Positions 1,126 to 37,577 of a stretch of DNA of 41,689 nucleotides are shown here, one piece after another. The translations under genes and the position numbers were made by a program. The stretch spans positions 1 to 41,689 of the forward strand of contig DUNO01000003.1 of the NCBI GenBank assembly GCA_012839295.1, written 5' to 3'. Each line of letters opens with the position of its first letter. Positions within the stretch are counted from its first letter, which is position 1. The DNA is from Clostridiales bacterium (lineage in GTDB: Bacteria; Bacillota; Clostridia; Lachnospirales; Lachnospiraceae). The notes below the pieces were generated by a model. That model did no database searches. It was not told the origin of the DNA and worked only from the letters and a program-made list of their open reading frames with translations.

Positions 1126-1764
1126 TCACCTGATCAGCTGCTGTATGGCTGATGCCATCGCATGCAACATCAAATAACAGCTGGTGGCACCGGCATCAAG
1201 CACTCCCCTGGAGCGCTCCCCCAGCCTGCTTGCCCTTCCGATCCTTGCAACCATCTCTTCTGTTGAGCACCATCCTGTCCTTGCTGCCTCCTTCAGCTCC
1301 ACCAAGGCCGTATAAAAGTCCATTCCCTCTGCTAAAGCTGAGGAATAAGCTTCTACCGCGGGAATCAGCGTATCCAGCAGTGTTTTATCACCGCGTTTCG
1401 CATTCCCTATTTCCTGTACCTCTTCCAAGGCAGCCTGCAGCATTTCCCCAAAAATAGCTGCATCGATTTCCTCTTTACCCTCTGAGGCATCTGCCATTGC
1501 TTCAAAAAATACGCCGTACAGGGGGCCCATGGAGCCTCCGATATCTGTCAGCAGGGTGGAGCTTAACACCTGCAAGGCCTCCGACATGTTGTACTCCCTT
1601 CCTTTGATCCGTGCCCCGCAGAGGGTAAACCCCTTATTCATGTTGATGCCATGGTCACCATCCCCGATTTTCCCGTCGATTTCGCTCAGATAATCCCTAT
1701 TTGCCTGGATTGTGGTAATCAGGCTTTCAACAATGGCTATTCCGTCCTTATTTTTGAAAGTCAT
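1126..1764 (-). CDS. dhaL: Dihydroxyacetone-kinase L subunit (DhaL-like)
   Basis: 212 aa, the usual DhaL length. DhaL binds ADP/ATP and two Mg ions and passes phosphate to the ketose held covalently by DhaK. The metal-ligand signature is intact: Asp30, Asp35 and Asp37 in EIDGKIGDGDHG. The glycine-rich nucleotide cap GGSMGPLYG and C-terminal DAGATS are also present. Last gene of the operon, 16 bp after dhaK. No DhaM phosphodonor or fused kinase domain is encoded nearby, so the phosphate source is unclear: ATP directly, as in fused DhaK-DhaL kinases, triokinase and the tetrulose kinases DerK/LerK, or a DhaM encoded elsewhere. Confidence 0.9.
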   Translation of the reverse strand: MTFKNKDGIAIVESLITTIQANRDYLSEIDGKIGDGDHGINMNKGFTLCGARIKGREYNMSEALQVLSSTLLTDIGGSMGPLYGVFFEAMADASEGKEEIDAAIFGEMLQAALEEVQEIGNAKRGDKTLLDTLIPAVEAYSSALAEGMDFYTALVELKEAARTGWCSTEEMVARIGRASRLGERSRGVLDAGATSCYLMLHAMASAIQQLIR

Positions 1765-1780
1765 TTGCCTTCCCTCCCCT

Positions 1781-2779
1781 CTAGAATTGTGTTAATCCTA
1801 CGGATTCTGCAGGCATATCGATCAATTCCTTCAATTCTTCATCCAGCCTCATGACCGTTAAGGTAACTCCCATCATTTCCAGTGACGTAAAATAATTCCC
1901 CACATAGGCCCGGTGAACCTTGATTTCTTTTCTGTCCAGGATTTCAGCCACCTTATTGTAGACGATATACTGCTCCATGACGGGAGTCGCCCCTAACCCG
2001 GATAACAACACAACTACCTCATCCCCCGTATGAAAGGGCAGATCCGGCAGGAGGATCTCCAGCATCTGCTTCGCTATTTCATCGGCTGTCTTCAGGGGCT
2101 GGACACTGACCCCGGGTTCTCCGTGGTGTCCGATCCCTACCTCCATCATGCCCTCTTCAATTGTAAAATTAGGATGACCCACTGCAGGAATTGTACAGGG
2201 TCTGGTTCCTATTCCTACGCTGCGCGTATTGTTGATGGCCTTTTGTGCCGCAGCAATTACTTCATCCAGCCCGGCTCCCATGGCTGCTTTGGCTCCGGCG
2301 ATCTTCCACATAAGGACTTCCCCGGCCACACCCCTTCTCCGCTGTGCTTCCTCAGGGGGTGCAGAGGCGGCGTCATCATTTGCAACTACGGTTTTTACAA
2401 GGATTCCTTCCTTCTTGGCCATTTTCACCGCCATCCTGACATTCATATTGTCTCCGGCATAATTTCCGTACAGGCACGCTACTCCCTTACCGGAGTCAGC
2501 CTCCTTCATCGCCTGGAAAAATGCCTGGGCGGCCGGGGATGAAAATATCTCGCCCACGGCAACGGCATCACACATGTTTTTCCCTATATACCCAATGAAT
2601 GCAGGCTTGTGGCCGGAGCCTCCCCCGGTTACGATGCCAACCTTACCCTCCACCGGGGCGTTTTTATATTTTAACACCCGGGGATTGTCCGTCCCTGCCA
2701 AAAGGTTGGCATGGGCTTTGACGTAGCCCTTTAGCATGTCTTCTACAACAAAGTCAGGATTATTAATAATTCTGCTCAT
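1781..2779 (-). CDS. dhaK: Dihydroxyacetone/erythrulose-kinase K subunit (DhaK-like)
   Basis: 332 aa, full length. DhaK binds short ketoses as a hemiaminal on a histidine. That histidine is present as His219 in GIGHHGEPG. The substrate loop GGGSGHKP (52-59) and GNYAGDNMN with Asp110 are also intact. Members phosphorylate dihydroxyacetone, glyceraldehyde (triokinase) or D-/L-erythrulose. The adjacent RpiB-type isomerase recalls the tetritol pathways in which erythrulose-4-phosphate is isomerised to erythrose-4-phosphate. The two aldolases upstream would equally supply C3 aldehydes or ketoses. Start ATG is preceded by a GGAGGA site. Family sure, substrate not. Confidence 0.9.
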   Translation of the reverse strand: MSRIINNPDFVVEDMLKGYVKAHANLLAGTDNPRVLKYKNAPVEGKVGIVTGGGSGHKPAFIGYIGKNMCDAVAVGEIFSSPAAQAFFQAMKEADSGKGVACLYGNYAGDNMNVRMAVKMAKKEGILVKTVVANDDAASAPPEEAQRRRGVAGEVLMWKIAGAKAAMGAGLDEVIAAAQKAINNTRSVGIGTRPCTIPAVGHPNFTIEEGMMEVGIGHHGEPGVSVQPLKTADEIAKQMLEILLPDLPFHTGDEVVVLLSGLGATPVMEQYIVYNKVAEILDRKEIKVHRAYVGNYFTSLEMMGVTLTVMRLDEELKELIDMPAESVGLTQF

Positions 2780-2794
2780 GGCATCCTCCTCCGA

Positions 2795-3247
2795 TTATCG
2801 AATATACTCCCGTTCTATCTCTGTAATGCGGGCTACCTTCTGCTTGGAGGCACCGCCTGCAAAATCACATCCTAACCAGATATCGACAAGGCATTTGCAC
2901 AGCTCAACCCCTATGACACGCTCGCCCATACATAGGATCTGTGCATTGTTGCTTTTCCGGGAACGCTCTGCGGAATAAGGATCATGGCATACAGCTGCCC
3001 GTATTCCCGGAACCTTATTTGCCGTAATCGCCATGCCGATACCCGTGCCGCATAAAAGGATCCCACGCTCAAAGCTTCCTCCAGCAACAGCTTCGGCAAC
3101 ACTTTTCGCTATGTCAGGGTAAAAAACCGTTTCCCCCGGACCAGCCCCAAAGTCTTTGAGCTCTATTTCTTCCCTGCCCTTTAAATGTCCTATAATCTCC
3201 AGTTTTAAATGATATGCCGCTTCATCGCATCCAATGGCAATCCTCAT
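2795..3247 (-). CDS. RpiB/LacAB-family sugar-phosphate isomerase
   Basis: 150 aa, normal for the family. Cofactor-free aldose/ketose phosphate isomerase; members act on ribose-5-P/ribulose-5-P, allose-6-P, galactose-6-P or D-erythrulose-4-P. Seen: N-terminal IAIGCDEAAYHLK with Asp8, the CGTGIG loop with catalytic-type Cys66, His89 in VCHDPYSAERSRKSNNAQ, and C-terminal REYIR. It sits between the fucose-isomerase-like gene and dhaK with short gaps. This suggests it isomerises the DhaKL product or a pentose-phosphate intermediate. An ordinary ribose-5-P isomerase role is the simpler alternative. Confidence 0.88.
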   Translation of the reverse strand: MRIAIGCDEAAYHLKLEIIGHLKGREEIELKDFGAGPGETVFYPDIAKSVAEAVAGGSFERGILLCGTGIGMAITANKVPGIRAAVCHDPYSAERSRKSNNAQILCMGERVIGVELCKCLVDIWLGCDFAGGASKQKVARITEIEREYIR

Positions 3248-3271
3248 ACAATATCCCCCTCATCATCAAAA

Positions 3272-4684
3272 TCATTCCCCAAGTACTTCCACATCGATTT
3301 CCAGCATCCTGCAGATAGTCTTAAGCTCATCTATGCAGTCACCATATACGGCATGGCAATGGTTCGCGCTGAACCGTTCCAGGAAAATCCTATGATCGAA
3401 GGGCAGCTTTGCAAACACATGGGGCCACTCCCTGGTAGTCTCCGCCATCTTTTCCTCGGGAAGGCTTACAAATTCGGCAGGTATGACCGTCATGCGGTAT
3501 TTTCCCTTATAGCGGTTTAAACGGGCAATGGTGGCCTGGCCGGGGCTCGTCATGCAGTTCACGTGACAGCCGCCTCCTGCGTAGATCTCCAGGCAGGGAT
3601 ACAGCTTTACTTTCTTTAGGTTCTCCTCGGGATCCTTACTGCGTCCCGCATAATAGGTTGATTCCGAGCCGCAGTTGCAGAAGACCATGACATCATAATC
3701 CGAATCATAATGGCGGACATCCATGAATAAAACAGGGTCATCTGTCAGCAGCTTCAGTATCTGCATTGTCATGGCCGCATCAGAATCCGCTTCGCAGGCA
3801 TAGGCCACCGGCTCCTTTTCCCCGTCCCAGTCATAGGGGTCATTCATAAAGGCTGCCGCGATACATTCTGTACAGTAATGCCTGCTCATTTCATAATGGC
3901 ATTTCACACCTACAAAATCATAGCTGTTGTCCCTTACGATTTTTTTAACCGCCTCATAATGCCTGATCTGCTCCTTTAATTTTTCCGGCGTCAGACGGTT
4001 ACCGTCATATAAAATCTCGCCGCAATGCCCACTGAGCCAGTCAAAAGCCTTCTCCACCTGCTTCTCCGGCACTTCCTCCGCCAGACGGACAATTTCAGAT
4101 TGATCCATGTGGTCCACATCTACACCGAATTTCTCCTGCCAGTCCTGCATGCTCACGGTGGCGCTGTACATCCCTAAGCTTCTTCCCCCGATCAAGCCGT
4201 ATTTCTGTCCTTTCAGCCTGTTTACGACGCCGGCGCAGCGTGCAAAATGCACTATTTTCCCTAATATCTCCGGATTCCTGAAATCTCCGGCCACCCGGAA
4301 ATGGTCAATTCCCAAATGATCCAAGGCTCCTCCCGCTGCCAGCATGGATACCATTCCAGGCCAGTCAGGATTCAAATTCGCACACAACAGGAAAGGTCCT
4401 TTTCCAAATTTTGCAATGATTGCTGAAAAATTAGGGAAGGCAAAGACACCATGGGAGATAACCGTGCCGTCAACCCCCTGCTTATTCAGAAATTCCGCCT
4501 GCTCCTTCGCTGACTGGACGGAATTAACCAGACATTCCGCCCGGACGACCTCTATCCGCCCGTCCTTCTCCAGCTCTTCCACTATCGTATCAACCTGGGC
4601 CTGGACGATCTCCTTTAGGGTCTCATGAACCTCCATATCCCCGTCAGATACTCCGACAATACCGATCACCGGTTTTCTACCCAT
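3272..4684 (-). CDS. L-fucose/L-arabinose isomerase-family protein
   Basis: 470 aa. Related to L-fucose isomerase (aldose-ketose isomerase, Mn-dependent, using Glu, Asp and His ligands). Candidate ligands are seen in order: Glu in AYACEADSDAAMTM, Asp in LFMDVRHYDSDYD and His in FSANHCHAVYGD, so the active site looks complete. Fucose isomerases are usually nearer 590 aa, so this belongs to the shorter fucose-isomerase-like group of poorly defined substrates. It lies directly downstream of FGGY kinase 2, in keeping with making the ketose that the kinases phosphorylate. Specificity cannot be read from sequence. Confidence 0.82.
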   Translation of the reverse strand: MGRKPVIGIVGVSDGDMEVHETLKEIVQAQVDTIVEELEKDGRIEVVRAECLVNSVQSAKEQAEFLNKQGVDGTVISHGVFAFPNFSAIIAKFGKGPFLLCANLNPDWPGMVSMLAAGGALDHLGIDHFRVAGDFRNPEILGKIVHFARCAGVVNRLKGQKYGLIGGRSLGMYSATVSMQDWQEKFGVDVDHMDQSEIVRLAEEVPEKQVEKAFDWLSGHCGEILYDGNRLTPEKLKEQIRHYEAVKKIVRDNSYDFVGVKCHYEMSRHYCTECIAAAFMNDPYDWDGEKEPVAYACEADSDAAMTMQILKLLTDDPVLFMDVRHYDSDYDVMVFCNCGSESTYYAGRSKDPEENLKKVKLYPCLEIYAGGGCHVNCMTSPGQATIARLNRYKGKYRMTVIPAEFVSLPEEKMAETTREWPHVFAKLPFDHRIFLERFSANHCHAVYGDCIDELKTICRMLEIDVEVLGE

Positions 4685-4706
4685 AATTAGTCCTCCTATC
4701 CTTCTC

Positions 4707-6176
4707 CTATCTCAAACGGCTTCTTATGTCCTGATATTTCTCAAATAATCCGTCATAATCCTTTGATGCATAAAAAACCTCTTTTGTCCTCACAAACTGG
4801 GCAACCGCCTCCCCATAGCTGCCATAATCGCCGCATGCCACAGCGCAGATAATGGCAAGCCCCGTAATTCCAGCCTCCCTATTCTCCAGCACATGGATCT
4901 CCTTCTTCAGGATATCCGCCTTCAGCTGCATAAACATCCTGGATTTTGTAATTCCTCCCGTTGCGCTGAGGTACCCGATGGGGAACCCGGTTTTCTGCAG
5001 CGTATCCAGGTTGATCCTGGATTCAAAATTCAGCCCCTGCAGCACCGCCCGGTAGAATTCCCACCTGTCCGTATCCAGGGTAATGCCGATAAATGCCCCC
5101 GGCACCTTCGACTCAGGATCCATAATATTAACCTTGCTTAAATGGGGCAAAAAAATCAGCTCCGTATCCTCCCGGCTGTTTTTCTCCAGATAGGCATAGA
5201 TATCCTCCCCTTCCTCCAGGCTGTCCTTTATCCCCGCCTCAAAGGTGCGGATATACCATCGGAGGGCGTTCCCATAGGTTAAGAAGGAAGCCGGTATCAG
5301 GTACAGACCCTTTTCCAGGAAGGGCTCCACACACATGCTGCGTTTGACCAGCTCCCCGGAAGACTGGAATACGGCTTCCCCCACAACAAGATTAATGCTC
5401 TCTGTCGAGCCTTCTCCGATCATGGCTGCACCCGGCGCATACACACCGCCTCCGATGGTTGCACTGCACTGGTCATGGCATCCCAGATAAATCCCAAGCT
5501 CCGGGGACAATCCTAATTCCTCTGCCAGCCCGCTCCTGATCTTCCCAAGGAAAGTCCCCACCGGAAGCACCGGCGAAAACCACTCCCCGGGAAGCCCAAG
5601 GGCTTCGAGCAGCTCCTCCGACCAGCTGCCCAGGTGTATGTCAAAAAGAAGGGTTTTGGATGCCGTGCCTGCATCTACACCCCTGCTTCCGCTCAGCAGA
5701 TAATTATAATAATCATTTGCCAGGTAGATGCTCCTTGCCTTCTCCATGACCCCGGGACAGTTATCCCTCAGCCATAAAAGCCTAAACAATGAAAATGTCT
5801 CGTTCGGCACAACCCCTGTGATATCAAATATTCTTTCATCCGTATATTGTTTGGACAGCCGCTTCTCCATGCCTTTGCACCGGCTGTCTGCATAGGTAAT
5901 GAAATTATGTAACGGGACATCACATTCATCCAGGAGGACGAATGCTTCCCCAAAGCTCGCAAGCGATAAGGCCTTTACGGAGCCTGCCTTTGGCGAAAGC
6001 TCCTTCAGAACCTGCTTCACCTTAGCATAAATCTCTAATGGGTCTAATTCCACAAAGCCCCGCCGGGGAAATTTCAGGCTATATTCCGCATGGGCAGCAG
6101 CAACCACCTCAGCCTTTTCCGTGATAATGGAGGCTTTGCAGCCGGAGGTTCCTATATCAAGTCCTATGTATGCCAT
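4707..6176 (-). CDS. FGGY-family carbohydrate kinase 2
   Basis: 489 aa, two-domain actin-fold sugar kinase, xylulokinase-like in length. N-terminal IGLDIGTSGCKAS is the phosphate-1 motif; GCHDQCSATIGGG carries the likely catalytic Asp; the C-terminal SATGGITKSRMFMQLKADIL and AGITGLA motifs bind ATP. Paired with aldolase 2 immediately upstream and the isomerase immediately downstream. FGGY enzymes phosphorylate ketoses or polyols; with a class II aldolase beside it, a ketose-1-phosphate product is plausible. It differs clearly from FGGY kinase 1 in this operon, so the two probably have different substrates. Confidence 0.88.
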   Translation of the reverse strand: MAYIGLDIGTSGCKASIITEKAEVVAAAHAEYSLKFPRRGFVELDPLEIYAKVKQVLKELSPKAGSVKALSLASFGEAFVLLDECDVPLHNFITYADSRCKGMEKRLSKQYTDERIFDITGVVPNETFSLFRLLWLRDNCPGVMEKARSIYLANDYYNYLLSGSRGVDAGTASKTLLFDIHLGSWSEELLEALGLPGEWFSPVLPVGTFLGKIRSGLAEELGLSPELGIYLGCHDQCSATIGGGVYAPGAAMIGEGSTESINLVVGEAVFQSSGELVKRSMCVEPFLEKGLYLIPASFLTYGNALRWYIRTFEAGIKDSLEEGEDIYAYLEKNSREDTELIFLPHLSKVNIMDPESKVPGAFIGITLDTDRWEFYRAVLQGLNFESRINLDTLQKTGFPIGYLSATGGITKSRMFMQLKADILKKEIHVLENREAGITGLAIICAVACGDYGSYGEAVAQFVRTKEVFYASKDYDGLFEKYQDIRSRLR

Positions 6177-6268
6177 TTCAAGACTCCTTTCCCTAAAATC
6201 TTGACACAGATAATGCGAAACTCAGAAATTGCTGCTGTTTTTCACTGACTATACTGTTTTGCAATTCC

Positions 6269-7123
6269 TTAAAATCTCGACAGCTTTAGCTTAGCCTCTA
6301 AATATGTTTCCAGCCTTTCCTGCACGAACCTGGGAACCTCCAGAAGCTTGAAGGGATTATCCTCTTTTTCCTTTAGTCTTGTATAATCCACCAATGCTTT
6401 ATAATATTCCCCTATAAATTCAGTTCCTACATTGAATTTATTGATGCCTTTTTTGAAGGCTTCCCTCAGCTGGTCATCCGGGATCCCGCTGCCTCCGTGG
6501 AGAACCAGGGGCACCTTGGTAGCTGCGTTGATCTCCTCCAGCCTTTGGATATCCAGAACCGGTTTCTCCCTGTATACCCCATGTGCATTTCCAATGGAAA
6601 TAGCCAGGGAATCAATATTGGTTTCCCTGCAAAAGAGCCCTGCTGTCTCCGGGTCGGTATATATTCCCTTTTTCTCTGCACTGTCCGAGGTTTCCAGACC
6701 TATCGTCCCCAGCTCGGCCTCCACGTCCGCACCCAGGATATGGGCTGCTTCCGCCACTTTTTTTGTCAACTCTATATTTTCCTTTAACGGCCTTGCGGAG
6801 CCGTCAATCATTACTGAGGGAAATCCCAGACGGATTGCCCTGATTACGCTTTCATAGTCATAGCTGTGGTCCAGGTGCAGCCCGATGGGTACCCTGACCC
6901 CTGCCGCCAGATCCTTTGCTGTCTCCGCAAAACCTTTGATGCTAAAGGTATTATTCTTCCCTGAGTGCTCCGGCAGCAGCATAACAAGTGCAGGTGTGTT
7001 TGCCTTTTCAGCTGTTTTAATCACGGAATACACCATGTTGTAATCAATACAGATGAATGAGATGACCGAAGTACCCGCTTCATCCGCCATCCTTAATATG
7101 TTTTTAACACTCTCCAGTGCCAT
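6269..7123 (-). CDS. Class II (zinc) ketose-phosphate aldolase 2
   Basis: 284 aa, FbaA/GatY/KbaY/IolJ superfamily: cleaves a ketose (bis)phosphate to DHAP plus an aldehyde. Zinc and catalytic motifs are intact: HLDHS with the catalytic-type Asp, EAELGTIG, ISIGNAHG, VLHGGSG, and the phosphate loop FNVGTEF. A good AGGAG site precedes the ATG. It is separated from the transketolase genes by a 213-bp repeat tract and followed by FGGY kinase 2. About the length of tagatose-bisphosphate-type aldolases. Substrate unknown. Confidence 0.87.
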   Translation of the reverse strand: MALESVKNILRMADEAGTSVISFICIDYNMVYSVIKTAEKANTPALVMLLPEHSGKNNTFSIKGFAETAKDLAAGVRVPIGLHLDHSYDYESVIRAIRLGFPSVMIDGSARPLKENIELTKKVAEAAHILGADVEAELGTIGLETSDSAEKKGIYTDPETAGLFCRETNIDSLAISIGNAHGVYREKPVLDIQRLEEINAATKVPLVLHGGSGIPDDQLREAFKKGINKFNVGTEFIGEYYKALVDYTRLKEKEDNPFKLLEVPRFVQERLETYLEAKLKLSRF

Positions 7124-7140
7124 AGCTTTCTCTCTCCTAT

Positions 7141-7336
7141 TGCCTTCTACTTTTCTAGCGTCACCTTCCTGGCATTGCTTTTCTTAACACTATTTCTTCT
7201 GTCATTACTTCTCTAACGTTACACTTCCATAACATTACTTTTCTAACATTACTTTTCTAACATTACTTCTCCAGCATTACACTTCGCTAGGGTTGCTCCT
7301 TTAACATTGCTTTTCTTAACATTTCCTTTTCCAACT
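7141..7336 (-). repeat. Degenerate 14-16-bp tandem repeat tract
   Basis: The whole space between the transketolase C stop and aldolase 2 is about 13 imperfect copies of a unit that reads AATGTTAGAAAAGT on the coding strand. The middle copies (7235-7277) are nearly identical. Each of these three reads as a mini-ORF M-L-E-K-stop whose UAA overlaps the next AUG (UAAUG): 7277-7263, 7263-7249, 7249-7235. The tract is transcribed with the operon. No protein, terminator or promoter is evident in it. Confidence 0.8.
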
Positions 7337-8290
7337 TCACTTTTTCCCAGCCTTACGCTCAATTGCACTTTTTGCCTTGCCTACAATATTCTCCACTGTA
7401 AGCCCGTACCGCTCCAGCAGCGCTTCTGCAGGCCCCGAGTGGCCGAACTCATCTTCCACTCCCACCCGTTCAACGGGTACCAGCACATTCTCTGCAATTA
7501 CCTCTGATACTGCCGAGCCAAGGCCTCCGATGATGTTATGCTCCTCGACGGTAACAATTGCCCCCGTCTCCTTTGCTGAGGCAAGGATTAATTCCTTGTC
7601 AAAGGGCTTCATGGTATGCAGGTTGATTACCCTTGCCGAAATCCCTTCCTTTTCAAGCTCTTCTGCCGCCGCATAGGCTTTCTGGACCATAATCCCATAA
7701 GCTGCAATCGTCACGTCCCTGCCTTCCTTTAAAATAATTCCTTTTCCCAGTTCAAATTTATAATCCTTTACCCTGTCCGTAATCTCCTCCACAGCCAACC
7801 GGCTGGTGCGCAGATAGCAGGGGCCGTCATAGGCAATCATAGCCTTTACCGCCTCCCGTGTTTCCCTTGCATCACAGGGGATGACCACCGTCATATCAGG
7901 GATGGTCCGCATGAGGCTCACGTCCTCGATACATTGATGGGTGGCTCCGTCCTCCCCGACCGTTAATCCTGCATGGCTTCCTACCACCTTTACATTCAGA
8001 TGGGGATATGCCACGCAATTGCGGATCTGGTCATAGCCCCTCCCCGCCGTGAACATGGCAAAGGAATGGCAGAAGGCAATTTTCCCCGTGGCGGCAAAGC
8101 CTGCCGCAATATCAATCATATTGGCCTCTGCAATTCCTATATTATAGAATCTCTCCGGATATTGCTCCGCAAAATTAACGGACATGGTACAGCTGGCTAA
8201 ATCCGCATCCAGCGCCACGATATCCGGGTTATTGCCAAATTCACACAAGGCCTTCCCATATGCAACCCTGCTCGCTATTTTTTCACTCAT
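7337..8290 (-). CDS. Transketolase, C-terminal subunit
   Basis: 317 aa from ATG 8290, which has GGAGGG 8 nt upstream; a longer upstream reading frame would overlap the N subunit and carries no family sequence. Contains the pyrimidine-binding and C-terminal domains of transketolase. The catalytic-type Glu is in NIGIAEANMIDIAAG; SHAGLTVGEDGATHQ and the GHSG near the C-terminus are conserved. Together with the N subunit it forms one thiamine-diphosphate enzyme that moves a two-carbon ketol unit. Split transketolases occur in many anaerobes and in dedicated pathways (apulose-4-P transketolase AptAB, sulfo-transketolase SqwGH), so presence inside a sugar operon suggests a dedicated substrate. Confidence 0.9.
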   Translation of the reverse strand: MSEKIASRVAYGKALCEFGNNPDIVALDADLASCTMSVNFAEQYPERFYNIGIAEANMIDIAAGFAATGKIAFCHSFAMFTAGRGYDQIRNCVAYPHLNVKVVGSHAGLTVGEDGATHQCIEDVSLMRTIPDMTVVIPCDARETREAVKAMIAYDGPCYLRTSRLAVEEITDRVKDYKFELGKGIILKEGRDVTIAAYGIMVQKAYAAAEELEKEGISARVINLHTMKPFDKELILASAKETGAIVTVEEHNIIGGLGSAVSEVIAENVLVPVERVGVEDEFGHSGPAEALLERYGLTVENIVGKAKSAIERKAGKK

Positions 8291-8294
8291 CTGA

Positions 8295-9137
8295 TCAACC
8301 CTCCAGTTCCTTCCGCCTGGAATCCAGCTCCTTGAAAGCAATATGAAATTCCGCCTCCGTCGGCCTTCCTCCATGGAATCTTACCTGATTCTCAAACACG
8401 GAGCACCCCTTGCCCTTTGTGGTTTCCGCAATGATTGCGGTCGGTATGCCCTTTTTCTCCCTGGCCTGCCCCAGCGCTTTTGCAATCTGTGTGACATCAT
8501 GCCCGTTAATGGTTATGGTATTCCACCCAAAGCTTTCAAATTTCTTATCAATCGGCAAAGGTGACATGATCTCCTCCACGGTGCCGTCCAGCTGGAGCTT
8601 GTTGCTGTCCACAATTGCCACCAGGTTATCCAGCTTGAATTTGCCGGCACTCATGGCCGCTTCCCACACCTGGCCTTCCTGGAGCTCTCCGTCCCCAAGG
8701 ATGCAATAGGTTCTGTAGCCCTTCTGATAGGTTTTCGCTGAAAGCGCCATTCCTACCGCGGCGGACAAGCCCTGCCCCAGGGAGCCTGCGGACATATCTA
8801 CCCCGGGCACATGCTTCATCTCGATGTGGCCGGACAGATAGCTGTCTATCCTCCTTAAGGTAGCCAGATCCTCCATAGGGAAAAATCCTTTGATTGCCAA
8901 TGCCGCATAAACAGCAGGGGCACAATGGCCCTTTGACAATACAAACCTGTCCCTGTCCTCCATTTTTGGATTTTCCGGGTCTATATGCATTTCATGAAAA
9001 TATAATACTGACAATAGCTCTGCTATGGAGAAAGAACCCCCGACATGGCCGGAACCGGCCGTTTTAATTGCCTGAAGGCTTTCCTTCCTGATTTTCACAG
9101 CAATTCTTTCTAAATCACGCTTTTTTTCTATATCCAT
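8295..9137 (-). CDS. Transketolase, N-terminal subunit
   Basis: 280 aa, the thiamine-diphosphate/Mg-binding half. Seen: GHVGGSFS, the VLSKGHCAP loop with the cofactor His, MSAGSLGQGLS, and the GDGELQEGQVWEAAM...SNKLQLDG motif that binds Mg and diphosphate. Followed after only 4 bp by the C subunit, so the two are translationally linked and together equal one full transketolase. Preceded by FGGY kinase 1. It could link a phosphorylated ketose of this pathway to xylulose-5-P, or regenerate pentose phosphates from erythrose-4-P made by RpiB. Confidence 0.9.
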   Translation of the reverse strand: MDIEKKRDLERIAVKIRKESLQAIKTAGSGHVGGSFSIAELLSVLYFHEMHIDPENPKMEDRDRFVLSKGHCAPAVYAALAIKGFFPMEDLATLRRIDSYLSGHIEMKHVPGVDMSAGSLGQGLSAAVGMALSAKTYQKGYRTYCILGDGELQEGQVWEAAMSAGKFKLDNLVAIVDSNKLQLDGTVEEIMSPLPIDKKFESFGWNTITINGHDVTQIAKALGQAREKKGIPTAIIAETTKGKGCSVFENQVRFHGGRPTEAEFHIAFKELDSRRKELEG

Positions 9138-9157
9138 AGATTACCTCCCAGCGGGTG

Positions 9158-10648
9158 TTAAAGTAAATGGTTGATTTCCTTAAGCTTCTGGTACAATTCT
9201 TTATAAATGCACAATTTCTCCCGGTATACCTTTACAAAACGGCTCTCCGGTTCATAAGTCCGTCCCATCCTTACCATCTTTTCCACTGCCTCGGCAACCG
9301 TAGGAAAATCTCCCGCCGCTACTGCACCCAGGATGGCACCGCCCAACGTACCTGTCTGTTTGCTTTCTACCGTATGTACCTCCATGTCCAGCACATCTGC
9401 CTTAATCTGAAGCAGCTGCTCTGAGAGGGCACCTCCGGTAGCCGTCAGCCTCCCAGGCTGCAGCCCTGCCTTTCTCAGGCAATCCAGAATCAGTGCCAGC
9501 TCATAATTCGCCCCTTCCATAAGCGCCTTATAAATATCCTCCCGCCTGGTTCCCAGGGTCAGGCCCAGGATGGCACCCTTTGACCTGTCATCCATGTGGG
9601 GGGTGGCTGCTCCTGAAAAATGAGGAAGCACCAGCAGTCCGGTAGGCTCTGCCGCCATCCCTTCATTTAATTTCCTGAAAACTTCCCTTATGCCTGCTGT
9701 TCCTTCCTCCCGGACAAATTCCTGCACAAACCATTTCAGCAGGATACCGGAGGTGTTATTCCAGGCAACGGTATTGAACATCCGGGGCAGCACAAAGGGT
9801 TCACAGGAAATCTGGTACCGGTTGATGCTGTCGGTGCTTAACTGTGCCCTGTGCAAAAGAGCCGTCAGACCCTCCGTGGTACCCACCGTGTTGGCACAGT
9901 CCCCATAATTGACGGAGCCGCTTCCGATGGCATTGCAGATATGGTCATGGGTGCCCACGACCACCTTGATACCGGGGGAAAGCCCCAGCTCCCCTGCCAC
10001 CCTTCCCTCCATGGTTCCCACGATACTTCCGCCCCTGGCCGGCTCTGACAGCTTATTCCTGTCAATTCCAAGAGCCCGCAATATTTCCTCCGACCAGCTG
10101 TTCGTACCTATATCAAAGAGCAGGGTGCGGGAGGCCATGGAATAATCGATAACTGCACTGTGGGTCAGGCGGTATATGACATAATCCTGGAAGGTCACGA
10201 TCTTCCAGGCCTCCTCATACAATTTGGCAGCCTGTTTCTTTAGCCAGAGTATTTTATTCCCGGAATAAATCGTACTGAGGTTTAGCCCGGTGATATCCGT
10301 CAGCCGTTCCCTTCCCAGCAGGTACTGTATCTCCTCCAGCTCCTGTGTACCCCTGATGTCCGTTCCGCTGATGCTTTTACACAGGGGTCTGCCGGATGCA
10401 TCCATCGGAATTATGGCTTCTCCCAGAGCAGAGACCGTAATGGTCCTTATGCCCCGGTGGCCTCCTACCGCAGCTAGGCAGGCCTTCACCGCATCCCATA
10501 CCTCATCTGCATTAAGCTCCCGGTAACCATTTTCTGTATTGCAGAATCCATACGCAACCTGGTGATCCTTTAACAGCCTTCCTTCTTCATTAATTAAGGA
10601 GGCCTTTGTTCCAGATGTCCCTATATCAAGACCTATGTACATCTTCAT
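9158..10648 (-). CDS. FGGY-family carbohydrate kinase 1
   Basis: 496 aa, xylulokinase/gluconokinase-like. YIGLDIGTSGTKAS at the N-terminus, candidate catalytic Asp in GTHDHICNAIGSG, VGTTEG, LPHFSGAATPHMD, and C-terminal TATGGALSEQLLQIKADVL with GTLGGAI for ATP binding. Between aldolase 1 and the transketolase N subunit. Distinct from FGGY kinase 2 in the same operon. The context favours a ketose substrate produced from the imported sugar; which one cannot be stated. Confidence 0.88.
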   Translation of the reverse strand: MKMYIGLDIGTSGTKASLINEEGRLLKDHQVAYGFCNTENGYRELNADEVWDAVKACLAAVGGHRGIRTITVSALGEAIIPMDASGRPLCKSISGTDIRGTQELEEIQYLLGRERLTDITGLNLSTIYSGNKILWLKKQAAKLYEEAWKIVTFQDYVIYRLTHSAVIDYSMASRTLLFDIGTNSWSEEILRALGIDRNKLSEPARGGSIVGTMEGRVAGELGLSPGIKVVVGTHDHICNAIGSGSVNYGDCANTVGTTEGLTALLHRAQLSTDSINRYQISCEPFVLPRMFNTVAWNNTSGILLKWFVQEFVREEGTAGIREVFRKLNEGMAAEPTGLLVLPHFSGAATPHMDDRSKGAILGLTLGTRREDIYKALMEGANYELALILDCLRKAGLQPGRLTATGGALSEQLLQIKADVLDMEVHTVESKQTGTLGGAILGAVAAGDFPTVAEAVEKMVRMGRTYEPESRFVKVYREKLCIYKELYQKLKEINHLL

Positions 10649-10667
10649 TACGCCTTTCGTTCAAAAT

Positions 10668-11555
10668 TTACCATGATTTTTTACAGGTCATGAACAGCTC
10701 CAATGCCTGTTTTGCACCCTTTTTCAATTCCTCCATGGCTACATTGACCATTAAGGAATAATTTAAGGGGCGGCCTTCATAACCATCAATCATCTGCTGT
10801 ATTGCAGGGGTGATACCGGTATCCATGGCGGTAAAATAATTGATCTTCCTGATTCCGGCATTGATGGCGGCGACCACCTGGTCAGGCTCCGTCCCGGAGC
10901 AGCCGTGGATGCCAAGATATGTACCGGTTCCTTCCACGGCCTTTTTGATGTCCTTGATGCGCTGTATGTCCAGATTTGATTTTTCCGTATACATACCATG
11001 GACAGTGCCTATGGAAATGGCCAGAACCTCAACTCCCGTAGCCCGGGCAAATTTCTCGGCCTCCTCCACCCTTGTAAAATACTTTGTCAGGTCGCTTAAG
11101 TCCGACTGCTCCTGGCCCGGGACGCAGGAAGGCATATTATTAGGCATTGCTCCCAGCTCCGCCTCTACCGTAATTCCCAAGGGGCGCACCAGATCAACGA
11201 AGGCCTTCGTTAAAGCGATATTTTCCTCCAGCGGATAGGCGGAGCGGTCGCACATAATGGAAGTAAAGCCGGCCCTGACCGCCCTCATGCAGAAATCAAT
11301 ATCAAGACCGTGATCGATATGCATAGCCACCGGAACCTTCGCATTCTCTGCGTACAGCTTCATTAACGGGGCAATAACCTCTAAGGCGACTACCGGCTCA
11401 TGCCCCTGGGCATGGTTAATGATAATGGGACAGCCCAGTTCCTCCGCTGCCCCAATGACAGCCCTCAGGGTTTCCAGGTTCGGCGTGTTTAAAGATCCAA
11501 TTGCGTAATTGTGTTTCTCGGCATCTGCGAGCATTTCCTTCATGTTAACTAACAT
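10668..11555 (-). CDS. Class II (zinc) ketose-phosphate aldolase 1
   Basis: 295 aa, FbaA-like superfamily. MHIDHGLD carries the zinc His and catalytic Asp; EAELGAM, ISIGTVHG and GIHGCSG supply the remaining ligands. Two points differ from standard enzymes and from aldolase 2: the usual HGGSG reads HGCSG, and the phosphate loop reads KINYFTAMDTG rather than the usual NxDTD form. An insertion with MPNNMPSCVPGQEQ follows EAELG. First enzyme gene after the transporter. Probably a monophosphate aldolase of altered specificity, inferred from those loops. Confidence 0.85.
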   Translation of the reverse strand: MLVNMKEMLADAEKHNYAIGSLNTPNLETLRAVIGAAEELGCPIIINHAQGHEPVVALEVIAPLMKLYAENAKVPVAMHIDHGLDIDFCMRAVRAGFTSIMCDRSAYPLEENIALTKAFVDLVRPLGITVEAELGAMPNNMPSCVPGQEQSDLSDLTKYFTRVEEAEKFARATGVEVLAISIGTVHGMYTEKSNLDIQRIKDIKKAVEGTGTYLGIHGCSGTEPDQVVAAINAGIRKINYFTAMDTGITPAIQQMIDGYEGRPLNYSLMVNVAMEELKKGAKQALELFMTCKKSW

Positions 11556-11582
11556 AATGTTGTCTCCTTTAATAATTTATTG

Positions 11583-12581
11583 TCATTCACTCCTGGCTTT
11601 CTTTTTATTCTGCCGGATCATATCCAGGTAGACAGCCAGCAGTATAATGATTCCCTTTGCAATGTACTGCCAGTTCGAATTTACATGGAGCAGGGTAAGG
11701 CCGTTGCTGATAACACCGATCACCAACACCCCTATCAGGACGCCCCCGGCTCCTCCTACACCCCCGTACATGCTCACCCCGCCCAGGACACTTGCGGCAA
11801 TGGCATCGGTTTCCGCACCCACTGAGGTGCTTGGCTGTCCTGAGGATAATCTTGCTGCCATGACGATGCCGGCAAAGGATGCCAGCACACCGCTGATGGT
11901 CCAGACCATGATTTTGACTCTTTTGATGTTAATTCCGGAAAACTGGGCAGCCGTGGCATTTCCACCCACTGCATATATGTACCTTCCCATCCTTGTTTTA
12001 TTTAAGAGCAGATACAGCAATAAAAAGCAGATCAGCATATAGATGATCGGATAGGGGATGATCCCCAAGGATCCGGTACCAATAATGGGAAATTTCTCGT
12101 TCACATACAGGGATACCGGCTGCCCGTTGGCGATCAGATAGGCCGCACCCCGCAAAATACTTTGCATGGCCAGCGTCACCACAAAGGGGTGGATCCCGCT
12201 GTAGGCAATAATGACGCCGTTTAGAAGGCCTGCCCCGATGCCCAGGAGGATTCCAAGCAATATGGCGATGGCCATTGGGATCCCCAGCCTTTCCATGGCA
12301 ACCACACAAAGACATCCGGAACAGGCAATCATGGCTCCTGCAATCAGGTCAATGCCTCCGAGCATAATGGCTAAGGTAACACCGATGGCCAGCATGCCTG
12401 TGGTAGATACGGTGCGCAAAATTGTAATCCAGTTATTTACGGTGGCAAAATTAGGTGCTGCAAGGCCCAGTATGATACACAAAACGATAAAGGCCGTTAA
12501 TATGCCCAGATTTTGCTTAAAGTACCGGTAAACCGATCCTAAAAGCGGATTGTCTTCATATTTATTGAATCTATCCTTCAT
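11583..12581 (-). CDS. Ribose-type (CUT2) sugar ABC transporter permease
   Basis: 332 aa, RbsC-like inner-membrane permease with about 8-10 hydrophobic segments. The motif SGIHPFVVTLAMQSILRGA and the cytoplasmic SGINIKRVKIMVWTISGVLA are typical of the family, as is GGVSMYGGVGG near the C-terminus. ATGA overlap with the ATPase stop (12578-12581) indicates translational coupling. The N-terminus has a cytoplasmic leader of about 25 residues. CUT2 systems import monosaccharides (ribose, xylose, arabinose, galactose, apiose). Confidence 0.92.
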   Translation of the reverse strand: MKDRFNKYEDNPLLGSVYRYFKQNLGILTAFIVLCIILGLAAPNFATVNNWITILRTVSTTGMLAIGVTLAIMLGGIDLIAGAMIACSGCLCVVAMERLGIPMAIAILLGILLGIGAGLLNGVIIAYSGIHPFVVTLAMQSILRGAAYLIANGQPVSLYVNEKFPIIGTGSLGIIPYPIIYMLICFLLLYLLLNKTRMGRYIYAVGGNATAAQFSGINIKRVKIMVWTISGVLASFAGIVMAARLSSGQPSTSVGAETDAIAASVLGGVSMYGGVGGAGGVLIGVLVIGVISNGLTLLHVNSNWQYIAKGIIILLAVYLDMIRQNKKKARSE

Positions 12582-14050
12582 TTAATACCCTCCGCAACTG
12601 CATAATGCAAAATTTTCTGCTGTTCAAACTCCGACCTATCCAAATTGCCCCGGATCCTGCCTTCGCTCATGATTAATATCCTGTCGCACATATTAATAAT
12701 TTCCGGCATCTCGGAAGAAATCATGATGATGGCCATTCCTCCCGCTGCCAGGTTATTCATAATACTGTAAATCTCCGCTTTCGCACCCACGTCCACTCCC
12801 CGGGTGGGTTCATCCAGGATCAGCACATCCGGGTTCGAGGCCAGCCATTTTGCCAGAACCACCTTCTGCTGGTTTCCACCGGATAAATTGCTTACTGTCT
12901 GGTCCCTTGACGGTGTCTTAATATTCAGGTCGGCAATTCCTTTGTCTACGATAGCCTTTTCTTTTTTTGTATTCACCCGCAGCTTCTTAATAAACTTTCC
13001 CAGTACGGAGACACTGATATTAAATTGGATGGTATTTTTCAATATTAGGCCTTCCAGCTTCCGGTTTTCCGGAACCAGCGCCAAGCCTCTTTCCTGTATT
13101 TTCATCGTGGAAAGCTTCGATACATCCTTTCCCTTTAAAAATACGGAGCCGCTGTCCCTGGGGTAAAGCCCCATGACCGCTTTTATGAGCTCGGAGCGTC
13201 CCGCACCCACCAGCCCATAAAATCCCAGGATTTCCTTCTTGCGGACCTGAAAGCTGCAGTCAATTACCCGGCTGCCGGAATTGATGTTCCTGGCCTCTAA
13301 TACAACCTCCCCCGGCTCATTGAAGGATCTCACATAATAACTGCTCAATTCCCTTCCGACCATCATCTGCACTAATTCAGCCTGGCTGCTTTCCTGGGTA
13401 ATGACAGTTCCCACATAACCGCCATCCCGCATGACACATACCCTGTTTGTAATGGCAAAGATCTCCGACAGCTTATGGGAAATGTAGATGATCCCAATAT
13501 TTTTTTCCTTAAGCCGGTTGATCATGGCAAATAACAGCTCCACTTCCTTTTCCGATAAGGAAGAGGTCGGTTCATCCATAATCATAAGCTTCATGTTCAA
13601 GGAACAGGCCTTTGCAATTTCCACCATCTGCTGCCTGCCAATGCTTAAGCTGTTTACCATGGTTGCGGGATTTACATCCAGGCCTACCATCTCCAGCCAC
13701 TGCCTGGCTTCCCTGTACATCTTGTTCTTATCCACCATGCCCGCCGTCATTCTTTCCCGTCCCAGGAAAATATTTTCTGCCACGGACAGATAGGGCACCA
13801 GCGCTATTTCCTGATGGATAAATGCAATTCCAAGATTCTGGGCAGCCACCACGTTATCAATCCTGGCATCCTGACCGTCAATCCTTATCTCTCCTGAATC
13901 CGGTCTGTAAATACCACCAAGCACATTCATCAAGGTGGATTTGCCTGCCCCGTTCTCACCCAGCAGCCCAAGAACTTCTCCCTCATATAATGTCAGCTGC
14001 GCATTATCGAGTGCCTTAACCCCCGGAAAAGTTTTCATGATATCTTTCAT
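12578..14050 (-). CDS. Ribose-type (CUT2) sugar ABC transporter ATPase
   Basis: 490 aa from the first conventional ATG. Two fused nucleotide-binding domains as in RbsA/XylG/MglA. Domain 1 has Walker A LLGENGAGKST, signature LSIGRQQ and Walker B LMIMDEPTSSL. Domain 2 has the usual degenerate Walker A LVGAGRSE, LSGGNQQKV and LILDEPTRGVD. The ATG at 14050 has no ribosome site. The in-frame codons before it encode PKVLVE, the expected first beta strand, and begin at an ATA codon (14071-14069) five bases after GAGGTG; the preceding in-frame stop is at 14089. The true start may therefore be ATA at 14071 (497 aa). Confidence 0.92.
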   Translation of the reverse strand: MKDIMKTFPGVKALDNAQLTLYEGEVLGLLGENGAGKSTLMNVLGGIYRPDSGEIRIDGQDARIDNVVAAQNLGIAFIHQEIALVPYLSVAENIFLGRERMTAGMVDKNKMYREARQWLEMVGLDVNPATMVNSLSIGRQQMVEIAKACSLNMKLMIMDEPTSSLSEKEVELLFAMINRLKEKNIGIIYISHKLSEIFAITNRVCVMRDGGYVGTVITQESSQAELVQMMVGRELSSYYVRSFNEPGEVVLEARNINSGSRVIDCSFQVRKKEILGFYGLVGAGRSELIKAVMGLYPRDSGSVFLKGKDVSKLSTMKIQERGLALVPENRKLEGLILKNTIQFNISVSVLGKFIKKLRVNTKKEKAIVDKGIADLNIKTPSRDQTVSNLSGGNQQKVVLAKWLASNPDVLILDEPTRGVDVGAKAEIYSIMNNLAAGGMAIIMISSEMPEIINMCDRILIMSEGRIRGNLDRSEFEQQKILHYAVAEGIK

Positions 14051-14090
14051 TTCAACTAATACTTTTGGTATCCCTACACCTCTTTTTTAA

Positions 14091-14118
14091 CTAAGGGCAG
14101 CAAGCCTGCCGCCCTTAG
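14091..14118 (-). other. Stem-loop between binding-protein and ATPase genes
   Basis: Perfect 8-bp arms CTAAGGGC/GCCCTTAG, extended by an inner GCA/TGC pairing, about 40 bp after the binding-protein stop. On the minus strand it is followed by TTAAAAAAG, not a U tract. It therefore looks like an mRNA 3'-end stabiliser or partial processing site that keeps the binding protein more abundant than the rest of the operon, not a full terminator. Confidence 0.6.
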
Positions 14119-14158
14119 CCATCGATACATTATATTTTGTCTAATGCCTTAATTCCCC

Positions 14159-15217
14159 TTACTGCCAGCCGTCGGTACCATACTGGTCTACGTTATCGGC
14201 AGAGATTAAGAAGGTGTCGACCACCACGTTTTTCTCAAGGGTGCCGCCCTCTAAGAAGGTAAGGGCTGCTATCATGGAATCATAGCCAAGGGTCTCAGGA
14301 GATTGTGCGCCGGTTCCTTCCATCTTTCCGTTTTTAACCATTGTCTTGGCATCCGGGTTCCCATCCACTCCGTATACCATGATCTTATTTTCTAAGGTAA
14401 CGCTGGACTGGTCAATTGCATTTACAGCGCCCATGGCGGAAGGATCGTTAACCGCAAATATGATTGACAAATCCGGGTCAGCCACGACTGCATCTGCAAC
14501 CAGGCCCATGGAGGTCTCCTGATCGCCCTTCCCATCCAGTACATTTACCACTGTGTATTTCTTTCCGCTCTCATCCAGGGCTTTTATAAATCCGTCATAA
14601 CGCTGTACACAGGCACTTGCCCTCGGGGAATGCAGCACCAGTATTTTAGCTCCGTCCTTCATCTTCTGGGCCGCATCCGCTCCTACTACATAGCCGGCAT
14701 TATAGTTATCCGATGCGATGATCGTCTCAACAAGATCGGCTGCATCCACAGGCGTATCAAAGTTAATTACCGGAACGCCCGCATCCTTCAGCTGGTTTAA
14801 CGCGGAGGTACAGGCCGTTGAATCTGCCGGAGCCAGTAACAGGGCATCTATGCCGGAGCTGATGAGGTCGCTGATCCTGTCATTCATGATGGATTGATCC
14901 CCGTTTGCATCAACCTCTACTAAATTTACCTTTGCACCTTTTTCTTCAATGGCTTTTTTCACGCCGTCCTCAACTGCCAGCCAGAAGGCATTGTTCAAGG
15001 TGGCCGGTGAATACCCGATTACATAGCTTTTACCGCTATCCGTTGCTTCTGCTGTCCCCCCTGCCGTAACAGTTTCACCGGTCTCTTTTGTCCCTGCCTC
15101 ATTTGTTGTCTGCTGTGTCCCTGTTTCTTTGCTTTTGTCGTTTCCATTGCCCGCACATGCCGATAAGCTAAGTGCTACCAATACTGACATTACTACTGCT
15201 ACAAATTTCTTTTTCAT
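14159..15217 (-). CDS. Sugar-binding lipoprotein of CUT2 ABC transporter
   Basis: 352 aa, RbsB-type periplasmic-binding fold. Signal peptide with lipobox LSLSAC, lipidation at Cys21, then a Gly/Thr/Glu-rich linker to about residue 65. The mature fold starts at YVIGYSPATLNNAFW; VDANGDQSIMNDRISDLIS and DALLLAPADS are typical of the ribose/galactose group. First gene of the 13-gene operon, preceded by GGAGGG. It captures the sugar outside the membrane; its ligand would define the pathway. The exact sugar is not predictable by eye. Confidence 0.92.
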   Translation of the reverse strand: MKKKFVAVVMSVLVALSLSACAGNGNDKSKETGTQQTTNEAGTKETGETVTAGGTAEATDSGKSYVIGYSPATLNNAFWLAVEDGVKKAIEEKGAKVNLVEVDANGDQSIMNDRISDLISSGIDALLLAPADSTACTSALNQLKDAGVPVINFDTPVDAADLVETIIASDNYNAGYVVGADAAQKMKDGAKILVLHSPRASACVQRYDGFIKALDESGKKYTVVNVLDGKGDQETSMGLVADAVVADPDLSIIFAVNDPSAMGAVNAIDQSSVTLENKIMVYGVDGNPDAKTMVKNGKMEGTGAQSPETLGYDSMIAALTFLEGGTLEKNVVVDTFLISADNVDQYGTDGWQ

Positions 15218-15537: not shown

Positions 15538-15572
15538 GAAAAAAGGGCAAAGCCCTGGCAGGCTTTGCCCTT
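15538..15572 (-). terminator. Terminator of the RpiR regulator gene
   Basis: Perfect 12-bp stem AAGGGCAAAGCC/GGCTTTGCCCTT (15572-15561 with 15554-15543), 6-nt loop, then TTTTTT on the minus strand. It separates the regulator gene from the operon downstream. Confidence 0.88.
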
Positions 15573-23539: not shown

Positions 23540-23730
23540 TTCCTTTGACCTGCGCAATGTGCGCTAATCCTTTCTATTTTCAATTATTATCATCGCTCCC
23601 TTAAAGAAATTTCAGCTTGCCTGCAATCTTCCAGTTCTGTCAGCGGATACTGCCTTTTACATGTTCCATCTTTATGTGCATAGCATAGACACAACTGCCA
23701 AAAGCAAATTTACTGGCTTTGTAACAGCAA

Positions 23731-24552: not shown

Positions 24553-24709
24553 ATCATTCTCCTCTTACTTTAATATAAGTATTAAAATTTATTACTCCTC
24601 TCATAGTAATAACCTCAAATAATAGCTAATCCCATAACAACCTTAAGTAATGAACTCAAAGTGGGTTCTTCCTGGATACCAGACTTCCCAGACAAAATAT
24701 AAGAAAGAC

Positions 24710-25360: not shown

Positions 25361-25456
25361 GCTTAACCCTCTCTAGAGCCGTTTATATATCAACCATCAT
25401 TCCCCGCCATCTTAAGAACCACAGATTGAATTGCAGGCAACCCTACTAATTCCTTC

Positions 25457-27508: not shown

Positions 27509-27557
27509 ATTTCTTTCTCCTCCTAAAAACCACAAAACCCGTCAATCTATAGACAAT

Positions 27558-27573
27558 GGCGTACTTTTACGCC
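27558..27573. other. Short palindrome before GH115
   Basis: GGCGTA-CTTT-TACGCC, perfect 6-bp arms, 50 bp upstream of the GH115 start and after the permease terminator. It could be an operator or a leader hairpin. Confidence 0.4.
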
Positions 27574-27587
27574 ACCTCCCCCTTCAA

Positions 27588-27626: not shown

Positions 27627-27632
27627 TTCCCC

Positions 27633-28487: not shown

Positions 28488-28488
28488 T

Positions 28489-29409: not shown

Positions 29410-29440
29410 AAAACTTACCTCATTTCTTTATGTTATGCAT

Positions 29441-29475: not shown

Positions 29476-29488
29476 CATTGTCTACAAA

Positions 29489-37570: not shown

Positions 37571-37577
37571 TTCTATA

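Follow-up and report, generated by a model that had tools for sequence, protein, structure and literature searches.

The gene names DthD, DerK and DerI for the D-threitol catabolism of Mycolicibacterium smegmatis reportedly come from Huang et al. (2015). Here, this and other known routes are compared with a 13-gene sugar operon on the minus strand of contig DUNO01000003.1 (C79) from a Clostridiales bacterium of the Lachnospiraceae; the window analysed is the entire contig (41,689 nt), from a genome of 6.36 Mb. According to a passage of PMC12780249, M. smegmatis degrades threitols via D- and L-erythrulose and their phosphates to D-erythrose 4-phosphate, and the names LerK, LerI and DerI are given in a passage of PMC10733421. 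As regards tetroses themselves, passages of PMC12780249 (2025) state that their uptake and catabolism remain unknown, and that tetrose-using bacteria have been isolated whose pathway is unknown. We propose that the locus is a composite sugar-catabolic operon, the last four genes of which form a recurrent module that would link the use of a four-carbon sugar to the pentose phosphate pathway, a reading that sequence comparison leads us to favour with reasonable confidence.

The genes run in the order sugar-binding protein, ATPase, permease, Ald1, Kin1, TktN, TktC, Ald2, Kin2, FucI-like isomerase, RpiB, DhaK and DhaL (Table 1). In the proposed route, the FucI-like protein would isomerise an aldotetrose (D-threose or D-erythrose) to D-erythrulose. 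DhaKL, judging from its clade and pocket motif, would phosphorylate this ketose to D-erythrulose 4-phosphate, which the EryI-type RpiB, judging from its catalytic-residue pattern and clade, would convert to D-erythrose 4-phosphate. The module would work like the D-threitol route of M. smegmatis, except that an aldose isomerase does the job of the polyol dehydrogenase. Upstream of it, the ABC transporter would import a sugar, Kin1 and Kin2 would phosphorylate it, and Ald1, Ald2 and TktNC would break carbon-carbon bonds; the tetrose is a probable product of this cleavage, either of a heptulose 1-phosphate by an aldolase or of an unphosphorylated ketohexose by the transketolase.

Each known system covers part of the locus. 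The M. smegmatis D-threitol route likewise has an ABC sugar transporter, a kinase of the DthD-linked DhaK clade and an RpiB-family isomerase leading to D-erythrose 4-phosphate, but no DthD-type dehydrogenase is found among the 13 genes; the aldose-ketose isomerase that stands in its place indicates that the entry sugar would be an aldose rather than a polyol. The erythritol loci of rhizobia and Brucella (eryABCD, eryR-tpiB-rpiB; EryH, EryI) share the EryI-type RpiB, with an SNNAQ motif in L151, whereas EryA-C and TpiB are absent from the 13 genes and the kinase substrate here would be an unphosphorylated tetrulose. The apionate pathway with OiaX (Rhizobium etli p42f, L147) ends with an RpiB of the same residue pattern, but is entered from an acid sugar through the RuBisCO-like OiaX and a TpiA-family isomerase. 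Finally, D-arabinose and L-fucose catabolism (FucI, FucK, FucA) shares the FucI fold and metal triad, although the FucI cut-offs are not approached here and an AraD-type FucA is absent from the 13 genes.

DhaK and DhaL as a putative D-erythrulose kinase

In alignments with PDB structures, the pocket motifs of the window DhaK are YGNYAGDNMNV and GHHGEPG, as against KNYxGDxxNF and GIH[GS]EPG in the dihydroxyacetone (DHA) kinases of E. coli and L. lactis. The His and Asp that we take to be catalytic in DHA kinases are kept. Against the NCBIfam dhaK1 model the protein scores 358.6 bits, below the cut-off of 406.25, and it does not carry the DHA-kinase pocket motifs; DhaL is above its own NCBIfam cut-off (175.8 vs 138.3 bits).

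In a tree of 48 DhaK sequences, the window DhaK falls in a clade of 35 (support 100/100), composed of 25 sequences linked to a FucI-like gene (the window included), 7 linked to DthD, the kinases of L107 and L108, and a paralog that this genome encodes in a second operon. This clade holds 25 of the 27 FucI-linked sequences, L042 and L046 lying just outside. A clade of their own, on long branches, holds the three canonical DHA kinases, one of which (C75) is another DhaK of the same genome. GHHGE[PA]G occurs in all 27 FucI-linked and all 7 DthD-linked sequences, and GNYxGDNMN in all 7 of the latter and 25 of the former (absent from L042 and L046); the three canonical kinases all have KNYxGD and GIH[GS]EPG.

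In L106 (409 bits), L105 (366) and L026 (366), the DthD-family short-chain dehydrogenase/reductase exceeds the 286-bit cut-off of the NCBIfam GolD/DthD model, and two database records name DthD relatives 'D-threitol dehydrogenase'. When seven stretches were sampled from 35 DthD-match records, DthD was followed by a kinase with GHHGEPG-type motifs in six. The DthD-kinase pair is also present in L105 and L106, which were found via the kinase, and DthD adjoins a GHHGEPG kinase in L119, which was left out of the tree. A strict link is contradicted by a Caballeronia plasmid (L118), where a DthD-family gene and a split transketolase are seen and the stretch contains no DhaK. Moreover, a DthD-family gene lies directly 3' of FucI-DhaK-DhaL-RpiB in L026, an order that ties the DthD and FucI-like entries to one pathway.

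Clade and motifs together argue well for a D-erythrulose kinase, forming D-erythrulose 4-phosphate, as the most likely function of DhaKL. An earlier note on this DNA had suggested an erythrulose kinase with an RpiB-type isomerase, and for the last genes of the operon this idea is backed by the DhaK clade and motifs and by the type of RpiB. It had also inferred that DhaKL phosphorylates released dihydroxyacetone, glyceraldehyde or erythrulose. The first two are disfavoured by the DhaK clade, by the missing DHA motif and by the EryI-type RpiB, for which a C3 route has no use.

Other arrangements of related kinases were also seen. DhaK relatives of 72% and 66% identity, not placed on the tree, lie directly 3' of zinc-type dehydrogenase genes in L144 and L146 (genomes G384 and G170), as one would expect were erythrulose also to come from a polyol dehydrogenase. 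The Caballeronia plasmid has in addition an RbsABC-type transporter and an FGGY kinase, possibly a transketolase-based polyol route. An E. coli conjugative plasmid (NZ_CP081708.1, L124) carries a cluster of phosphotransferase system (PTS), class II AraD-type aldolase, DhaK, DAK2 and HPr genes, which is another combination of an aldolase with a Dha kinase.

The RpiB-family isomerase

Ordinary RpiBs carry two catalytic His, which we take to be H10 and H99 of E. coli RpiB; the window protein has Glu and Ser instead. In all 20 RpiBs counted as module members, which fall in two separate lineages, Ser replaces the second His and the first is missing, and the same holds for six of six RpiBs from related contexts (L151, L148, L147, L105, L149, L150). 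L151 is the erythritol locus of R. leguminosarum WSM1325, encoding EryI; L148 has a similar tpiA-rpiB pair, and L147 is linked to OiaX. A passage of PMC3599248 includes an eryR-tpiB-rpiB suboperon in the erythritol locus. Both His are kept in 8 of 8 proteins counted as ordinary RpiBs, one of which is encoded on C11 of the same genome. This residue count leaves out the LacB of L160, which keeps the first His only; L155, a divergent protein of the same genome in which both His are missing; L049, which has Ser as well but lies on the other strand; L020, which shares its contig with L012; and L156, where no open reading frame was readable.

Free four-carbon ketoses do not form a ring, according to a passage of PMC12780249, and loss of the ring-opening His would suit a substrate that does not do so, provided that this extends to the phosphates. 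The residue pattern argues well for conversion of D-erythrulose 4-phosphate to D-erythrose 4-phosphate as the most likely reaction of the window RpiB. Combined with the DhaK clade and pocket changes, it makes D-erythrulose 4-phosphate and then erythrose 4-phosphate the most likely successive products of DhaKL and RpiB. This suggests that a simple rule, based on the Ser that replaces His in RpiB and on GHHGEPG in DhaK, would stop misannotation of such proteins as ribose-5-phosphate isomerase and dihydroxyacetone kinase.

The FucI-like isomerase

The AlphaFold model of the FucI-like protein (mean predicted local distance difference test score 92.6) best matches D-arabinose and L-fucose isomerases, first among them D-arabinose isomerase 3a9r (TM-score 0.89). 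E298, D322 and H444, a Glu-Asp-His triad presumed to hold the metal, are invariant in 43 of 43 aligned FucI-like proteins. However, the protein scores far below the NCBIfam FucI equivalog cut-offs (77.8 vs 850 and 90.8 vs 775 bits). Given that the kinase downstream is of the erythrulose type, an aldotetrose would be the simplest substrate. D-threose shares its C2-C3 configuration with D-arabinose and L-fucose. The protein is best explained as a predicted aldotetrose isomerase that replaces the polyol dehydrogenase, an assignment for which fold, triad and neighbouring kinase argue moderately. L-rhamnose isomerase has been used as a D-erythrose isomerase (a passage of PMC12012885).

In the clusters of L142, L047 and L055 we found a 399-residue protein that matches nothing in Pfam, along with a TIM barrel resembling psicose-3-epimerase (171.7 vs 300 bits); these are plausibly entries for other tetrose isomers. 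Two proteins whose relatives adjoin the module elsewhere, L013:5896-7095 (399 residues) and L054:13415-15424 (669 residues), have no Pfam match.

Distribution of the modules in other genomes

Among the loci examined, all 13 genes occur together only here. In other genomes they form separate operons: transporter with Ald1 and Kin1; Ald2 with Kin2; the split transketolase; and FucI-like with RpiB, DhaK and DhaL. Since these parts keep the same neighbours elsewhere, their grouping is not due to chance. The earlier note had inferred one combined route and called for a neighbourhood search for the same 13 genes. The loci examined gave partial sets and no second full set. The note had counted separate operons in other genomes as evidence against its reading, and such operons are seen in Diplocloster agilis (FucI-DhaK-DhaL-RpiB), L062 (transporter-Ald1-Kin1), L101 (relatives of Ald2-Kin2), and L096 and L098 (close relatives of the split transketolase). 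This weakens the combined route, and the 13 genes are not a single conserved pathway.

FucI-like loci were collected by scanning GTDB species genomes with two peptide patterns, a pattern-based and so non-exhaustive search that gave 39 loci. A same-strand DhaK lies within 5 kb in 24 of the 39 and within 200 bp in 19. RpiB is found within 5 kb in 17, of module type in 14 and ordinary, about 4 kb off, in 3. The minimal form is seen in D. agilis, where FucI, DhaK, DhaL and RpiB stand alone beside an IclR-type regulator gene. A CUT2-type ABC transporter lies inside the module cluster in five other loci (L025, L027, L030, L046, L051).

The upstream genes have their own distribution. Transporter-Ald1-Kin1 occurs without an adjoining module in L061 and L062 (Ald1 53–54%, Kin1 42–43% identity); in L060 (Ald1 82%, Kin1 62%), its neighbours are an isomerase and a Dha kinase of other kinds. 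Relatives of Ald2 and Kin2 stand with a transporter in L101. For the transketolase, orthology at E 1e-105 is uninformative (144 of 299 genomes), and only four matches of 67–69% were counted as close relatives: L096 and L098, with an ABC transporter and dehydrogenases alongside, and, on short contigs, L095 with a dehydrogenase and L097 with transporter genes. Kin2 was found at E 1e-90 in 2 of 299 genomes, including this one, and Ald1 at E 1e-85 in 4 of 397 genomes of the family (this one included) and 1 of 391 of the class (this one). L024 (Candidatus Choladousia, G776) has nearly the same modules, with transporter parts, Ald1, Kin1, Kin2, FucI-like, DhaK, DhaL and RpiB, and with a third aldolase and a PfkB kinase in place of the transketolase. 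Besides, a FucI-like gene is present in two of the three other Ald1-Kin1 genomes, compared with 4 of the 298 remaining genomes of the family (two at >70% identity), a count that leaves out G776, itself found via its FucI-like gene, with which it would be three of four; one of the two, G392, has that gene away from DhaKL.

In the open-access literature searched, we found no work that links a fucose isomerase with threose and erythrulose, or with a dihydroxyacetone kinase and a transketolase in one gene cluster, and no account of a route in which a free tetrose is cut from a C6 or C7 sugar. Relative to this literature, the module would be a new variant among the known tetritol routes. Because tetrose uptake and catabolism are called unknown in PMC12780249, it is a testable candidate: it points to genes that may encode the transporter, isomerase, kinase and phosphosugar isomerase of tetrose use, including in D. 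agilis and Extibacter muris. The wider proposal is of a dedicated bacterial tetrose pathway (CUT2 transporter, FucI-family isomerase, DAK-type kinase, EryI-type isomerase) that is fed internally here by the aldolases and split transketolase cutting a C6 or C7 sugar and that is spread over Lachnospiraceae, other Bacillota and Spirochaetota; taken jointly, we regard it as evenly balanced.

FucI-like genes were also seen in other settings. In several Lachnospiraceae (L035, L039, L040, L052, L053, L140), the gene occurs without DhaKL and adjoins what appear to be glgB- and typA-like housekeeping genes. In three Spirochaetota loci (L022, L028, L036), FucI-DhaK-DhaL-RpiB adjoins HpcH- and DapA-type aldolases and a YhcH/YjgK/YiaL-family protein, with what by eye resembles a Tct-type transporter nearby; these neighbours suggest a 2-keto-3-deoxy acid as the source of the aldose.

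Possible source of the tetrose

How the rest of the operon would supply a tetrose is indicated weakly, by another operon in this genome (C6, L112, G000:C6:76000-95500) and its relative in G170 (L143, G170:C110). Both join an aldolase of 46–47% identity to Ald1 with a Mga/PTS-type regulator, a cupin, a TIM-barrel epimerase, RpiB, DhaK, DhaL and fructose-type PTS genes, and the L112 copy has a HAD phosphatase. The recurrence of a ketose-phosphate aldolase beside erythrulose-type salvage suggests that the aldolase releases a tetrose, which would need a ketoheptose 1-phosphate. Ald1 is likely a ketose-1-phosphate aldolase. Alternatively, TktNC acting on a ketohexose may be the source.

Several observations weigh against the proposed module. 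Tetroses are rare in nature, according to a passage of PMC12780249. The DhaK clade includes two proteobacterial kinases without DthD nearby (L107 and L108), and the DhaKs of two FucI-like loci, L027 (42%) and L050 (47%), fall outside it and were labelled 'other'; grouping labels for DhaK and RpiB were assigned partly by similarity, and M. smegmatis DerK and DerI are not among the tree rows. The RpiBs of L029, L031 and L033, about 4 kb from FucI-like genes, keep the His and were classed as ordinary; counting them as module members would bring the pattern to 20 of 23. The grouping of the window RpiB's lineage with EryI and with the RpiB linked to OiaX has a support of 90/86, below the strict threshold, and the protein scores above the ordinary RpiB cut-off TIGR01120 (163.4 vs 138.65 bits) and below the rhizobial DerI model NF051858 (167.1 vs 240 bits). 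Of 39 FucI-like loci, 14 have no same-strand DhaK in the stretch examined, and in 11 of these a nearby downstream contig end does not explain it. In G392 the FucI-like gene and RpiB-DhaK-DhaL are on different contigs. Lastly, G097 has Ald1-Kin1 without a FucI-like gene or a module-type kinase, so the Ald1 product need not be a tetrose.

Alternative routes

A looser reading, possible though doubtful, is that the operon is a mosaic of several independent sugar routes under one promoter that share only a regulator, which is compatible with the function proposed for the last four genes. It would account for each module being found apart elsewhere and the full set only here. On the other hand, L024 joins nearly the same modules with other linkers, and the second operon of this genome and its G170 relative join an Ald1-like aldolase to RpiB-DhaK-DhaL.

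We consider improbable a C3 route, in which a ketohexose is phosphorylated at C1 and split by an aldolase into dihydroxyacetone phosphate and glyceraldehyde, the FucI-like protein makes dihydroxyacetone and DhaKL phosphorylates it. Two FGGY kinase/FBA-type (fructose-bisphosphate) aldolase pairs are indeed present, and the different isomerase and Dha kinase beside transporter-Ald1-Kin1 in L060 fit such a scheme. However, the window DhaK stands apart from DHA kinases in the tree and is without their pocket motif, and the EryI-type RpiB that recurs in the module has no C3 role.

A C5 route also appears unlikely. Here, the FucI-like protein would be a D-arabinose isomerase giving D-ribulose, DhaKL an unusual ribulose kinase, and RpiB would yield ribose 5-phosphate. 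D-arabinose isomerase is the best match of the FucI-like protein in sequence and structure, and with this enzyme as nearest solved relative a pentose substrate is conceivable, which counts against the tetrose assignment too; the hidden Markov model cut-off for RpiB is passed, and the HpcH- and DapA-type aldolases of the three Spirochaete module loci could release D-arabinose from 3-deoxy-D-manno-octulosonate (KDO). Against this, the window RpiB has neither of the His presumed to be catalytic, and the clade of the window DhaK is common to D-threitol dehydrogenase operons, where the ketose is C4. Plain use of D-arabinose or ribose was ranked lower on account of the RpiB residues.

The sulfoquinovose transketolase (sulfo-TK) pathway has a sugar isomerase (SqvD), a split transketolase (SqwGH) and a tetrulose isomerase (SqwI, which is RpiB-like), and the FucI-like protein, TktNC and RpiB would be their counterparts if the transketolase acted on a branched or modified ketose, as in an apiose-like route. 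A passage of PMC11659671 gives the steps as sulfoquinovose isomerase, two-subunit transketolase and the isomerase SqwI. Although the three kinds of step agree, this is very unlikely, and sulfo-TK membership was rejected: the FucI-like protein reaches 68 bits against the SftI cut-off of 700, sulfonate enzymes are missing among the 13 genes, kinases, aldolases and DhaKL are present, and among the 39 further FucI-like loci TktNC turned up once, in L038, at a distance of 5 kb from a FucI-like gene that has no DhaKL. An apiose route through the apulose-4-phosphate transketolase AptAB was likewise ranked lower.

Operon layout and neighbouring features

The 13 open reading frames are co-directional and tightly packed between positions 15217 and 1126, which confirms the sugar operon of the earlier note, with the strand and the families as it named them; its view that the enzyme set fits no single textbook pathway also holds. 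The gene order that it reported stands, and so do the short gaps at 9 of 12 joints (−4 to 27 nt), whereas wider gaps separate the binding protein from the ATPase (108 nt), TktC from Ald2 (213 nt) and Ald2 from Kin2 (92 nt). Most of the 13 start codons have a purine-rich stretch 5' of them, and the most likely start of TktC is position 8290, 4 nt past TktN, rather than 8374.

Table 1. Features of the operon and of its upstream flank
Feature	Position	Strand	Remarks
RpiR-family regulator	15616–16509	−	just upstream of the operon; in L061 and L062, too, the transporter has an RpiR gene ahead of it
Intrinsic-terminator-like hairpin	15543–15572	−	13 pairs and T-run; between RpiR regulator and operon
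RbsB-type CUT2 sugar-binding protein	14159–15217	−	kept with ATPase, permease, Ald1 and Kin1 in L060–L062
ABC transporter ATPase, RbsA/XylG type	12578–14050	−	
ABC transporter permease	11583–12581	−	
Ald1, class II FBA-family aldolase	10668–11555	−	relatives of 82–87% in L060 and L024, 53–54% in L061 and L062
Kin1, FGGY sugar kinase	9158–10648	−	adjoins Ald1 here and in L024, L060, L061 and L062
TktN, N-terminal half of split transketolase	8295–9137	−	
TktC, C-terminal half of split transketolase	7337–8290	−	four 67–69% matches in other operons
Ald2, class II FBA-family aldolase	6269–7123	−	
Kin2, FGGY sugar kinase	4707–6176	−	42% relative adjoins 36% Ald2 relative in L101
FucI-like aldose-ketose isomerase	3272–4684	−	Pfam Fucose_iso N1, N2 and C; predicted aldotetrose (D-threose/D-erythrose) isomerase
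RpiB-family isomerase, EryI type	2795–3247	−	predicted D-erythrulose 4-phosphate to D-erythrose 4-phosphate
DhaK-family subunit	1781–2779	−	predicted D-erythrulose kinase
DhaL	1126–1764	−	subunit of the same predicted kinase as DhaK

The RpiR-family regulator looks like a transcription unit apart from the operon. A promoter and terminator scan of the window gave results near chance except for the long hairpin at 15572-15543; terminator-like sites were 18 against 16.0 expected, and none lies on the minus strand in the 213-nt gap between TktC and Ald2. Catabolite-responsive element (cre)-like sites for CcpA, with 4 matches against 4.0 expected, give no signal in the window. PDB relatives of the binding protein gave no indication of its ligand.

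Just 3' of dhaL, at 204-882 on the minus strand, two small open reading frames may encode a HicB/HicA toxin-antitoxin pair, which they resemble by eye; the first has no NCBIfam match. At the other end of the window, 22415-41659 on the minus strand appears by eye to be a region for the use of plant glucuronides and pectin, with GH105-, GH115-, UxuA- and UxuB-like open reading frames and a CUT1 transporter.

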